Below are positions 1,687-12,127 of a stretch of DNA of 32,921 nt, piece by piece. A program made the position numbers and the translations under genes. Below the pieces are notes generated by a model. The model ran no database searches. It had not been told where the DNA came from and worked only from the letters and a program-made list of their open reading frames with translations. Position 1 is the first letter of the stretch. The number at the start of each line of letters is the position of its first letter. Source of the stretch: Sphingomonadaceae bacterium (GTDB lineage: Bacteria; Pseudomonadota; Alphaproteobacteria; Sphingomonadales; Sphingomonadaceae); NCBI GenBank assembly GCA_947455865.1, contig CANGQZ010000009.1, positions 1 to 32,921 of the forward strand, given 5' to 3'.

Positions 1687-1702
1687 CGTTTCACGTGGAA
1701 CA
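1687..1702. promoter_or_regulatory. parS-like ParB-binding site (CGTTTCACGTGGAACA)
   Basis: 15/16 match to parS consensus TGTTYCACGTGRAACA, in the mnmG-mnmE intergenic region. Confidence 0.85.
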
Positions 1703-1753: not shown

Positions 1754-3040
1754 CTACTTGCCGATGCAAAAGCGTCCGAACAACGCGTCGAGCATGTCCT
1801 CGGTGGTGGTTTGGCCGAGCAGAGCATCAAATGCCACGCGGGCGAGCCGGAGATGTTCCGCGACCAGCAGCAGATCGGTCAGCGACAGCGCGCCGCTCAG
1901 CGCCGCCTCGGCATCGCTGAGCAGGCGGTGCTGCCGGGCATTGAGCGCAGCCTCACCCGGCTTGGGCAGCGCGGCGCGGGCAGCGGCGACGAGATCGCTG
2001 CGCAGCGCGGGCAGGCCCTCGCCGGTCAGGGCCGAGAGGCGGTGGCGGGGGGCGGCCTTCGCCGGGGTAGCAGCCCGGTCGCACTGCGCGGCCACTTCCC
2101 ACGCGCCCAGAGGACCGGCGCCTTCGGGGCCAAGCCAGAGCACGAGATCGGCACTGGCAAATTCAGCCTCGGCGCGAGCAATGCCGATCTGTTCGACCGG
2201 ATCGCTCGCCTCAGCGTGAATTCCCGCAGTATCGCAGAACACGAACGGGATCCCGTCAAGCGCGACCGGGCGGGTGAGGACATCGCGGGTGGTGCCGACG
2301 GTGGGCGCGGTGATCGCCGCTTCGGCCTCGACCAGCGCGTTGAACAAGGTCGACTTACCGGCATTGGGCGGACCGGCGAGAACGACGCGGAAACCTTCGT
2401 GCAAGGCCTCGGCGCGAGGGCGGCTGAGCCAGCCGGCAATCTCGCTGCGCAGCGCGCCGATGTTCCACGTGAAACCCGGCGGTAACCGCGCGACATCGTC
2501 CTCGTCGCCGAAATCGAGCAAGGCCTCGATCTCGGCTGAACCGGTGAGCAATTCGCTGCGCCAGCGGTGAACGATGCGCGAGAACGTGCCGCCAGCCATC
2601 GCCAGCGCGCTGCGCCGCTGCAGTTCGGTTTCGGCGGAGAGCAGATCGGCCAGCCCTTCGGCCTCGGCGAGATCGATCTTGCCGTTGGCGAAAGCGCGGC
2701 GGGTAAACTCGCCCGGCTCGGCATGGCGCAGGCCGGGCATGGCGGCGAGCGCAGCTTCGACCGCAGCGACCACGGCGCGGCTGCCGTGGAGGTGGAGTTC
2801 GGCGGTGCTTTCACCGGTGGCGGTGTTGCCGCCGGGGAACCACAGCACCAGCGCCTTGTCGAGCACTTCGCCGGCAGCGTTGCGCAATGTGCGCAATACA
2901 GGCTGGTTGCCGAGCGGCGAGCGCCGGCGCGGGCCGAGCAGCGTCATCAGCGCATCGTGCGCCGCCGGGCCGCTGATCCGGATCACCGCAATCGCTGCCG
3001 GCGGGGCGCCGCTGGAGAGGGCGAAGATGGTGTCGCTCAT
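1754..3040 (-). CDS. mnmE: tRNA uridine-5-carboxymethylaminomethyl(34) synthesis GTPase MnmE
   Basis: N-term MSDTIFALSSGAPPAAIAVIRISG, GTPase motif GPPNAGKSTLFNAL, C-terminal FCIGK. Confidence 0.97.
   Translation of the reverse strand: MSDTIFALSSGAPPAAIAVIRISGPAAHDALMTLLGPRRRSPLGNQPVLRTLRNAAGEVLDKALVLWFPGGNTATGESTAELHLHGSRAVVAAVEAALAAMPGLRHAEPGEFTRRAFANGKIDLAEAEGLADLLSAETELQRRSALAMAGGTFSRIVHRWRSELLTGSAEIEALLDFGDEDDVARLPPGFTWNIGALRSEIAGWLSRPRAEALHEGFRVVLAGPPNAGKSTLFNALVEAEAAITAPTVGTTRDVLTRPVALDGIPFVFCDTAGIHAEASDPVEQIGIARAEAEFASADLVLWLGPEGAGPLGAWEVAAQCDRAATPAKAAPRHRLSALTGEGLPALRSDLVAAARAALPKPGEAALNARQHRLLSDAEAALSGALSLTDLLLVAEHLRLARVAFDALLGQTTTEDMLDALFGRFCIGK
2461..2476. promoter_or_regulatory. 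parS-like ParB-binding site (TGTTCCACGTGAAACC), inside mnmE
   Basis: 15/16 match to TGTTYCACGTGRAACA; second copy 774 bp from the first. Confidence 0.85.
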
Positions 3041-3417: not shown

Positions 3418-4116
3418 ATGGGCGAAATGATCCGCGTGCCGACGCTTGACGGCGCAGCCAGCTTCCCCGCCTATCTGGCACGCCCGGCCGCGGCGCCGCG
3501 TGGCGCGGTGATCGTGATTCAGGAAATATTCGGGGTGAACCCGGGTATCCGCAAGAAGGCCGATCACTGGGCCGCCCTGGGCTATCTGGCGATCGCGCCC
3601 GAAGTGTTCTGGCGCCAGGCCGAAGGGATCAGCCTCGATTCCGATGTGCCCGAGGAATTCCAGCAAGCGATCGATTACATGATGGCGCACGATTTCGATG
3701 CCGGGGTGCGCGACGTCGAGGCGGCGATCCGATGGATCCGCGGTGAGGGCGGTGTGCCTAAGGTGGGCCTGGTCGGCTACTGCATGGGCGGCAAGATCGC
3801 CTATCAGACCGCGGCGCGCACCGACATCGACGCCTCGGTCGGCTACTACGGCGTCGGCATCGAGGGCATGCTGAACGAGAGCCACGCCATCGCCAAACCG
3901 CTGATGCTTCATATTCCGACGGCCGACGGGTTCGTTCCCCCCGAAGCGCAGGCGGCGATCCACGCCGGGCTGGACGGCAATTCCCATGTGACGCTGCACG
4001 ATTACTTAGGGCTCGATCACGGCTTCGCCGCCGAAGACGGCATGCGCCGCGACGAGGCGGCTGCGCAGCTGGCGGATGGGCGGACCGAGGCGTTCTTTGC
4101 CGAGCATGTCGGCTAG
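3418..4116 (+). CDS. dienelactone hydrolase family protein
   Basis: IQEIFGVNPGIRKKADHWAALGYLAIAPE, nucleophile motif GYCMGGK and a conserved late LDHGFA. Confidence 0.92.
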   Translation: MGEMIRVPTLDGAASFPAYLARPAAAPRGAVIVIQEIFGVNPGIRKKADHWAALGYLAIAPEVFWRQAEGISLDSDVPEEFQQAIDYMMAHDFDAGVRDVEAAIRWIRGEGGVPKVGLVGYCMGGKIAYQTAARTDIDASVGYYGVGIEGMLNESHAIAKPLMLHIPTADGFVPPEAQAAIHAGLDGNSHVTLHDYLGLDHGFAAEDGMRRDEAAAQLADGRTEAFFAEHVG

Positions 4117-7125: not shown

Positions 7126-8169
7126 TCACCGTTCCCAGTCGCGCACCACTTTGAGCAGGCGTTCGACATGTTCGATCGGGGTGAACTGGCCGATGCCATG
7201 ACCGAGGTTGAACACATGCGGACGCCCGGCGAAAGCTTCGAGCACGCGGACAGCCTGAGATTCGAGCTCGGCCGAGCCGGCAAGCAGCAGCAGCGGATCG
7301 AGATTGCCTTGGACCGGCATATTCTCAGGCAGGCTGCGCGCGGCCCACAGCGGATCGATCGTCTCATCCACGCCGAGCGCATCGACCCCGGTTTCGCGGG
7401 CATAGGCGGCAAGCTTTTCGCCCGCGCCTTTGGGAAAGCCGATGATCGGCAGATCGGGGCAACGCGCGCGCAGCTGGCGGACGATTTCCGCATTGGGAGC
7501 GATGACCCAGCGTTCAAATTCGGCGGGAGCAAGGCTGCCGGCCCAGCTATCGAACAGCTGCACCGCTTCGGCCCCAGCGTTGGCCTGACCTTCGAGATAA
7601 TCGACTGTGACCGCGATGATCGCATCGATGATCGCCTGAAACGCCTGTGGGTCCTGATAAGCGTAAGCGCGGGTCTCGTGCTGATCGCGGCTGCCTTCGC
7701 CCGCAACCATGTAGGTCGCGATGGTCCAGGGGCTGCCGGCAAAGCCAAGCATGGTCTGCTGGGGGGTGAGCGCCGCGCGGACTAGCGCCACGGTCTCGTA
7801 GATCGGCGCAAGACGCTCTGGCACGGCGCTGAGGCTCTCCAGCGCGGTATCGACGAGGCGGGGCGAGAGGTGTGGGCCTTCGCCGGCAAGGAAGGCGAGA
7901 TCCTGACCCATCGCGTAAGGGACGATCAGGATGTCCGAAAACAGGATCGCACCATCGAAGCCAAAGCGGCGCAGCGGCTGGAGGGTGATCTCGGCAGCGG
8001 CGGCCGGATCGTAGACCAGCGCAAGGAAACCGCCCTTGCTTTCCCGCAGCGCGCGGTACTCAGGCAAATAGCGCCCGGCCTGACGCATCAGCCACACCGG
8101 ACGGCGGCTCGCGTTGGTCCCGCGCAGGGTATCGAGGAGGAGACCAGGCATCGTTCGGGTCCAATCCAA
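7126..8169 (-). CDS. hemE: uroporphyrinogen decarboxylase HemE
   Basis: RRPVWLMRQAGRYLPEYRALR; VQLFDSWAG; FNLGHGI. Confidence 0.97.
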   Translation of the reverse strand: MDWTRTMPGLLLDTLRGTNASRRPVWLMRQAGRYLPEYRALRESKGGFLALVYDPAAAAEITLQPLRRFGFDGAILFSDILIVPYAMGQDLAFLAGEGPHLSPRLVDTALESLSAVPERLAPIYETVALVRAALTPQQTMLGFAGSPWTIATYMVAGEGSRDQHETRAYAYQDPQAFQAIIDAIIAVTVDYLEGQANAGAEAVQLFDSWAGSLAPAEFERWVIAPNAEIVRQLRARCPDLPIIGFPKGAGEKLAAYARETGVDALGVDETIDPLWAARSLPENMPVQGNLDPLLLLAGSAELESQAVRVLEAFAGRPHVFNLGHGIGQFTPIEHVERLLKVVRDWER

Positions 8170-8483
8170 TAACTATATAGAGTCTTTAAATAAGGATTCT
8201 GAAGGCTGTTGGCCCTGTGGAAACCGGGAATTGCGGCTCCTGCCCGAATTTTCCCGGCCTGAACAGGGGGCAGCGCAAGGGCGACTCTGCGTGGATGCGC
8301 GTCAAGCCGGAGTTATCCCACCTATCCGCAGCATGTGGGAAACTGCGTCCACATGTCCACAACCTGGCAGGGCGCGCGCCGGTAGCGGGCAGCGAATGGC
8401 ATGGCCAAGTTGTCAGACTTCTCCTCCCGTGGTTTATGCGTCGCTCTATCCACAGTGCGCCAGCGCACCGACGACAGGCAGCG
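8170..8483. other. oriC: predicted chromosomal replication origin (oriC) between hemE and the DUF299/ppsR gene
   Basis: 30-bp AT-rich tract 8171-8200 (23/30 A/T) in a very GC-rich window. DnaA-box-like 9-mers: CTATCCACA 8446-8454 (8/9), TGTGGAAAC 8216-8224, TGTGGGAAA 8334-8342, CTATCCGCA 8322-8330, ATGTCCACA 8353-8361 (7/9 each). Strand switch of flanking genes and hemE/CC_0001-like synteny. Confidence 0.8.
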
Positions 8484-9332
8484 ATGACGACCCGGCTTCA
8501 CCTGCACCTGCTCTCGGACTCGACCGGCGAGACTCTGGAAATGATCGCAAAGGCCGCGCTCGCCCAGTTCGATGATGCCGACGTCATCAGGCATTTCTGG
8601 CCGATGGTCCGCTCGCAGCAGCACCTCGACCGGATTTTGGCCGAGATCGCCGCGAATCCCGGGCTGGTGCTGTTCACGCTGGTCAACAGCGAGATCCGCG
8701 GCCGGCTGGAAGATCGCTGCCGCGCGTTGGGGCTGCCGACGGTGCCGGCGCTCGATGCCGTGACGGCCGTGCTCGAGGACATGCTGGGGCAGGAAGCCAA
8801 GGCGCGGCCGGGGCGCCAGCACATGCTCGACGATGCCTATTTCGCGCGGGTCGAGGCTATCCAGTTCACCATTGCCCATGATGATGGGACCGCTTGGGAG
8901 GACTGGGAGAACGCCGATATCGTGCTGGCCGGGGTCTCGCGCTCGTCAAAGACGCCGACCAGCATCTATCTTGCCAACCGCGGCTACAAAGTGGCGAACA
9001 TCCCGATCGTGGTGGAAAGCCCGCCGCCGCCAGCACTGTTCTCGTTGCGGCGGCCGCTGGTGGTGGGGCTGACCACTGCACCCGAGCGGCTGATTCAGGT
9101 GCGGCGCAACCGGCTGCTGTCGCTCAACCAGGCGCCCGAGACGGCCTATGTCGATGCCGACCGGGTTGCGCGCGAGGTGCAGTATGCCCGGCGCATGTTC
9201 GGCGACAACGGCTGGCCGGTGATCGATGTGACGCGGCGCTCGATCGAGGAAACCGCCGCGGCTGTGATAAAGCTCTACAACGAGTACAAGGCTAACGGCG
9301 AGAGTGCCGATGCCGGGGCCAAGCCAATATGA
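8484..9332 (+). CDS. ppsR: pyruvate, phosphate dikinase regulatory protein (DUF299 kinase/phosphotransferase)
   Basis: [30 protein letters not shown]-loop-like [27 protein letters not shown]. Confidence 0.94.
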
Positions 9333-9354: not shown

Positions 9355-9939
9355 ATGCTGATTCTGGCTTCCCAAAGCGCATCGCGGCGGGCGATGCTCG
9401 AGGCGGCTGGGGTGCCGTTCATGGCGTTGCCAGCGGCGGTGGACGAGCGGGCGATCGAGGCCGGCCTGGGCGACGCGCTGCCCGCGGCGGTGGCGACGAG
9501 CCTGGCCGAGGCCAAGGCGCTGGCCGTTTCCGCGCAGCATCCCGGTCGGCTGGTGCTGGGCAGTGACAGTCTGGCGGTCTGCGCCGGACGGCGCTTTGAC
9601 AAGCCGGCGGACCGCGAGGCGGCGGCGGCGCATCTGCGCTTCTTTGCCGGGCGGACCCTGACGCTGCACAGCGCGGCGGCGCTCGCGCGGGATGGGGATG
9701 TGGTGTGGCGACATGCCGCTGCGGCGTCATTGCGGGTGGCGGCGCTATCGGACGCCTTCATTGCCGACTATCTGACCTACGAATGGCCGGCGGTGGCGGG
9801 CTGCGTGGGCGTTTTTCGGATCGAAGGGCGCGGGGTGCAATTGTTCGAGGCGATCGACGGCGATCATTTCACCGTGCTGGGCATGCCGCTGCTGGCGGTG
9901 CTGGGCGCGCTGCGCGAGATGGGCGAGTTGCCGCGGTGA
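9355..9939 (+). CDS. maf: Maf family nucleoside triphosphate pyrophosphatase
   Basis: [39 protein letters not shown]; alternative GTG start at 9304. Confidence 0.94.
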
Positions 9940-10793: not shown

Positions 10794-11388
10794 TGGGCGG
10801 CCCTATATCCTTGGCCTGACCGGCTCGATCGGGATGGGCAAATCGGCTGTCGCGGCGATGTTCGCCGGGCTGGGGGTGCCGGTGTTCGATGCCGATGCGG
10901 CGGTGCATGCGCTGCAGGGCCCGGGCGGCGAACTGTTGCCAGAAATAGAGGCGGCGTTTCCCGGCAGCACCGGACCGGACGGGGTCAACCGCGGCAAACT
11001 GGGCGCGGCGGTGTTTGGCAACCGCGCAGAACTGGCCCGGCTGGAAGCGATCGTCCACCCGGCGGTGGCGCGGCTGCGGCAGGCATTTCTGGCGGAACAT
11101 GCCGAGCGGCCGCTGGTGGTGTTCGATATCCCGCTGCTGTTCGAAAAGGGCGGGCAGGATCAGGTCGATGCGGTGGTGGTGGTTTCAGCCCCCGCCGAGG
11201 TGCAGCGCGAACGGGTGCTGGCGCGACCGGGGATGACCACGGAGAAATTCGCGCAGATCCTGACGCTGCAGGTGCCCGATGCCGAGAAGCGGGCGCGGGC
11301 CGATCATGTGATCGACACCGGCACGTCGCTGGCGGCAACGCGGCATGAAGTGCAAGCGCTGGTCCACCGGCTGACGGGCAGGGCATAG
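10786..11388 (+). CDS. coaE: dephospho-CoA kinase
   Basis: [20 protein letters not shown]-loop; [21 protein letters not shown]. Confidence 0.96.
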
Positions 11389-11437
11389 TCCACTTCCCCA
11401 CTTGCGCGGCGCGCACGGCGGGCCGATAGGTTAGGCG

Positions 11438-12127
11438 ATGCGCGAGATCATCTTCGACACCGAAACCACCGGACTCGATCCGAAAACGGGTGACCGGATG
11501 GTGGAAATCGGCTGCATCGAACTGGTCAACCGGGTGCCGACCGGCGCGATGTTCCATGGCTATTTCAACCCCGATCGCGACATGCCGGCCGAGGCAGAGG
11601 CGGTCCACGGCCTCTCCGCCAGCTTCCTCTCTGACAAGCCGCGTTTTGCCGAGCGCGCGGGCGAACTGCTCGAATTCCTGGCGGAGGCGCCGCTGGTGGC
11701 GCACAACGCCGGGTTCGACTTTGCCTTCCTCAATGCCGAGCTGAGCATGATCGGGCTGGCGCCGGTGTGCCACAGCCGAATGATCGACACGGTCAAGCTG
11801 GCGCGGGTGCGCCATCCGGGGGCCAAGCTCTCGCTCGATGCGCTGTGCACCCGCTATGGGATCGACCGCAGCCACCGCACCCGCCACGGCGCGCTGCTCG
11901 ATGCCGAGCTCCTGGCGCAAGTCTATGTCGAGCTGACCGGCGGGCGCCAGATCGGGCTTGAACTCGCCTGCGGGCCAGTCGACGCGATCGATGCCGCGAT
12001 GGCCGCGCCGCCGCGCGAACGGGTGTTCCGCCCGGCCCGGCCACATTCTGCGAGCGAGGCCGAACTCGCCGCGCACACCGCGTTTCTGGAGACGGTGAAA
12101 GCGCCGCTCTGGCTTGGCGGAACCTAA
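11438..12127 (+). CDS. dnaQ: DNA polymerase III subunit epsilon
   Basis: MREIIFDTETTGLDPKTGDRMVEIGCIE exonuclease motif; LVAHNAGFDFAFLN; HGALLDAELLAQVY. Confidence 0.96.
   Translation: MREIIFDTETTGLDPKTGDRMVEIGCIELVNRVPTGAMFHGYFNPDRDMPAEAEAVHGLSASFLSDKPRFAERAGELLEFLAEAPLVAHNAGFDFAFLNAELSMIGLAPVCHSRMIDTVKLARVRHPGAKLSLDALCTRYGIDRSHRTRHGALLDAELLAQVYVELTGGRQIGLELACGPVDAIDAAMAAPPRERVFRPARPHSASEAELAAHTAFLETVKAPLWLGGT

Follow-up and report, generated by a model that had tools for sequence, protein, structure and literature searches.

The hemE-ppsR intergenic region as the predicted chromosomal replication origin of a Novosphingobium species

The chromosomal replication origin of Caulobacter has been experimentally established to lie beside hemE (as reviewed in PMC1914354). 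This origin location is also already predicted at two levels. Within the genus Novosphingobium, oriC has been placed at hemE in strain PP1Y and in N. aromaticivorans (PMC4059872); at the family level, DoriC assigns the hemE location to most Sphingomonadaceae (PMC4741004). The DNA analyzed here (the window, 32,921 nucleotides) is one full contig, C9, of a draft genome of 2.77 Mb in 257 contigs that is 87% complete. The closest relatives of its hemE are in Novosphingobium, and the DNA is assigned to a species of this genus other than PP1Y and N. aromaticivorans that is known from a draft genome. Our analyses make it very probable that the hemE-ppsR gap is the Novosphingobium chromosomal replication origin and that it is of the Caulobacter (hemE-oriC-ppsR) type, a function that we infer from sequence. 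The locus resembles C. crescentus Cori, which lies between hemE and CC_0001, in its flanking genes, A/T-rich stretch, GANTC sites within the origin, and several weak and few stronger DnaA boxes (PMC1914354, PMC4285127, PMC3973325). Nothing essential separates it from the predicted origins of Novosphingobium sp. PP1Y, N. aromaticivorans, and Sphingopyxis granuli TFA, which likewise lie beside hemE and contain several DnaA boxes, with a putative unwinding element in Sphingopyxis as in the window (PMC4059872, PMC4741004).

A position between divergent hemE and ppsR (COG1806) is a defining property of hemE-type alphaproteobacterial origins and was found here. The original prediction had named hemE and ppsR (DUF299) as the flanking genes; Pfam confirmed both and placed maf, coaE, and dnaQ-like genes downstream of ppsR on the plus strand. 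To compare the gap across relatives, we aligned 80 orthologous hemE-ppsR gaps from Novosphingobium and near relatives, the window counted in; these sequences share kinship, and counts over them are not independent events. Every one of the 80 gaps was head-to-head, with lengths of 275 to 471 bp. Because the hemE ATG at 8149-8151 was kept in 80/80 sequences and the TTG at the originally noted boundary, 8169, was not conserved, the gap is better set as 8152-8483 (Table 1). Among 24 genomes from seven further families of the order, 23 had both genes, always as divergent neighbors, which extends the head-to-head arrangement to eight families, own family included. In one genome (G049), the pair straddled the end of a single-contig record. 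The genes from mnmG to hemE had been described as all on the minus strand, which holds with one exception: the gene at 3418-4116, of the dienelactone hydrolase family (PF01738), is on the plus strand. A search for RNA families gave no match anywhere in the window.

Table 1. Predicted features of the hemE-ppsR region and nearby parS-like sites; fractions of 80 refer to the aligned gap sequences.
Feature	Position	Strand	Remarks
parS-like GTTTCACGTGGAAC	1688-1701		One of three GTTYCACGTGRAAC matches in the 2.77-Mb draft
parS-like GTTCCACGTGAAAC	2462-2475		One of three GTTYCACGTGRAAC matches in the draft genome
hemE	7126-8151	-	PF01208, E 1e-109; start probably ATG 8149-8151
Predicted oriC (whole hemE-ppsR intergenic region)	8152-8483		Head-to-head orthologous gaps; conservation blocks in 80 sequences
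A/T-rich stretch, likely DNA unwinding element	8162-8204		All window 30-mers with A+T >=0.77
GANTC (CcrM-type) site 1	8180-8184		GANTC there in 51/80
GANTC site 2	8195-8199		GANTC there in 15/80
DnaA-box-like GTTTCCACA	8216-8224	-	Genus consensus nTaTCCACAGG; ungapped 80/80
GANTC site 3, invariant	8283-8287		80/80; middle base C in 55, A in 25
Weak DnaA-box-like TTATCCCAC	8313-8321	+	Partly conserved TTnTcC; ungapped 80/80; 3 mismatches to consensus box
DnaA-box-like CTATCCGCA	8322-8330	+	Genus consensus TnTCCcCAG; near Caulobacter W-box TCCCCA
DnaA-box-like TTTCCCACA	8334-8342	-	Genus consensus TncCCACAG
Weak DnaA-box-like GCGTCCACA	8345-8353	+	Weakly conserved; ungapped 72/80; 3 mismatches to consensus box
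DnaA-box-like ATGTCCACA	8353-8361	+	Genus consensus CcTGTccAcAA; ungapped 80/80
Promoter-like TTGTCA-N17-TTTATG, probably for ppsR	8410-8438	+	TTGTC-N18-TTTAT in 66/80
Best DnaA box CTATCCACA	8446-8454	+	8/9 match; TaTCCACA core conserved
ppsR (DUF299/COG1806)	8484-9332	+	PF03618 (formerly DUF299), E 7e-94

Hallmarks of hemE-type origins also include an above-chance, conserved cluster of DnaA boxes and an A/T-rich unwinding stretch, and we detected both in the gap. Counting as DnaA-box-like any 9-mer within two mismatches of TTATCCACA, we found five in the gap, where dinucleotide shuffles predicted 0.49 (p=0.001). Elsewhere in the window, 314-bp stretches contained at most this number. The five comprise one 8/9 and four 7/9 matches, in line with the one 8/9 and several 7/9 boxes noted previously. 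No perfect DnaA box occurs in the gap, and the single 8/9 box is unremarkable alone, with 1.55 such matches expected per whole window. The positions of the five boxes (8216, 8322, 8334, 8353, and 8446) were conserved in the alignment. As a control, we used 511 gaps of similar size from relatives, with genes roughly called; a few origin gaps remain among these, making the comparison conservative. DnaA-box-like 9-mers reached a density of 16.0/kb in hemE-ppsR gaps versus 1.1 to 1.8/kb in the control gaps. Window-wide, 30-mers with at least 77% A+T (maximum, 80%) started only between 8162 and 8174; the 77% A/T 30-mer noted earlier at 8171-8200 is exact, with 23/30 A+T (76.7%). In 80/80 sequences, the A/T peak on the hemE side topped the rest of the gap. 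Inspection by eye for DnaA-trio elements, the unwinding system described in PMC8287927, revealed no clear pattern.

A parS site near the origin is another characteristic of this origin type. The draft genome has only three matches to the parS-like GTTYCACGTGRAAC; two are in the window, 5.7 and 6.5 kb from the gap. GANTC sites were also concentrated in the hemE-ppsR gaps, at 15.0/kb versus 2.4 to 3.7/kb in the 511 other gaps (4- to 6-fold), and were 7.1-fold enriched relative to all surrounding DNA. Control palindromes of equal base makeup showed 0.8- to 1.5-fold values, with the exception of AGNCT (3.2-fold). The invariance of the GANTC at 8283-8287 despite a middle base of either C or A, together with the 4- to 6-fold density, suggests that methylation is under selection at the predicted origin.

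The promoter-like element of the gap faces ppsR, and across the 80 gaps no other spacing of TTGTC-N18-TTTAT was found. The best DnaA box, CTATCCACA, begins seven bases past TTTATG, at the expected transcription start. The conserved spacing suggests that 8410-8438 may act as the ppsR promoter with a DnaA box at its start point. Initiation could possibly be coupled to ppsR transcription via this element and box (8410-8454).

We analyzed strand asymmetry in the closed genome G005 (NZ_CP029761), which the genome collection places in Novosphingobium although its record reads Sphingomonas sp. IC081. In samples between 2.0 and 3.47 Mb, GC skew was negative with one exception; in those between 3.48 and 3.87 Mb, it was positive. 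Within the contiguous 3.42- to 3.54-Mb region, the cumulative minimum fell at 3,479,880, 3.0 kb from the hemE-ppsR gap (3,476,600-3,476,927). With an origin at hemE-ppsR assumed, the KOPS word GGGNAGGG, which played no part in choosing the arms, was oriented 150:26 toward the leading strand. A sign change of GC skew was also seen locally in G027 and in most other genomes sampled, and skew was lower on the hemE side than on the ppsR side in nine of ten further relatives. In the window, skew was positive on both sides of the gap (+0.032 left and +0.054 right); a sign change at the gap was likewise not found in G028, nor cleanly in the closest relatives (G062 to G064). When trained on G005, a 7-mer strand classifier largely reproduced the GC skew picture.

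This lack of a flip, which the window shares with its nearest relatives, along with the fixed-spacing promoter-like element, would fit an alternative in which the gap is only a divergent hemE/ppsR promoter under DnaA and CcrM/GcrA and the origin lies elsewhere, such as tens of kilobases to the hemE side in this subclade. In N. flavum (G062; contig C19, L209 to L241), the switch to positive values, in both GC skew and KOPS polarity, comes about 90 kb away from the gap on the hemE side, which also fits. However, in about 360 kb sampled from G062, no competing DnaA-box cluster or concentration of parS turned up there; DnaA boxes cluster most densely in its hemE-ppsR gap, and the four parS-like sites detected are all within 31 kb of that gap. 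Furthermore, the subclade keeps the A/T stretch and box array, and outside the subclade the flip occurs at hemE-ppsR in most genomes sampled. We therefore regard a promoter-only gap as very improbable. The odd N. flavum skew is not explained by a local inversion out to about 45 kb, the distance over which the left flank of G062 is collinear with G024.

In many bacteria, oriC adjoins dnaA, which would favor an origin at dnaA with the hemE gap coincidental. This possibility is barely credible, since dnaA of G005 (base 143 of the record, 433 kb from hemE) has flank skews of +0.006 and +0.048, neither negative, and thus lacks the negative-to-positive change that is present at hemE, and since a published study reports no conserved placement of dnaA near ori in Sphingomonadales (PMC8116508).

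The independent lines of synteny, a conserved box array beside a conserved A/T stretch, parS, CcrM-type sites, and the G005 skew flip agree with one another and thereby support the reading of the hemE-ppsR gap as oriC made in the original prediction. For such an origin, we propose that DnaA would nucleate on the better boxes at 8216, 8353, and 8446 and then fill the weaker boxes between 8313 and 8361. The DnaA oligomer may then open the A/T-rich stretch at 8162-8204 beside hemE, where the helicase would be loaded. ParB, presumed to load on parS at 1688 and 2462, would segregate newly copied origins. GANTC sites would become hemimethylated upon replication, a state that probably links the cell cycle, via CcrM and GcrA, to initiation or to transcription nearby.

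The draft genome encodes GcrA, a RAMA domain like that of Caulobacter CcrM, and DnaA domain IV. It gave no match to the DnaA ATPase model PF00308; because a DnaA DNA-binding domain was found in a short open frame on contig C143, an assembly gap is the likeliest reason for this absence. Unlike Cori, which is characterized by CtrA sites (TTAA-N7-TTAA) in the origin, the hemE-ppsR gaps contained this motif in 0/80 sequences, with none elsewhere in the window, and the G-box TGATCCACA in 1/80. CtrA is reported to be dispensable in Sphingomonas melonis (PMC8116508). A predicted origin free of CtrA sites and dense in methylation sites emerges as a by-product of our reading of these alignments. Considering the lack of CtrA sites, the dense and partly invariant CcrM sites, and the overlap of the putative ppsR promoter start with the best DnaA box, we tentatively raise the possibility, itself rather doubtful, that in Novosphingobium the methylation state, along with DnaA competing with the promoter, determines initiation timing in place of CtrA. 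This CtrA-free, GANTC-dense anatomy offers a testable contrast with Caulobacter in how alphaproteobacteria restrict initiation to once per cycle. For this and other genomes in the genus, the predicted oriC also sets coordinate zero, and it defines a precise 332-bp fragment for testing.

Clusters of four to five box-like words were also observed at a few other gaps. In G005, a divergent gap (L137, about 11380-11525) contains a DnaA-box-like cluster with one perfect TTATCCACA, and a divergent gap in G027 (L163, about 9480-9570) contains another. These two clusters could be DnaA-regulated promoters or titration sites.
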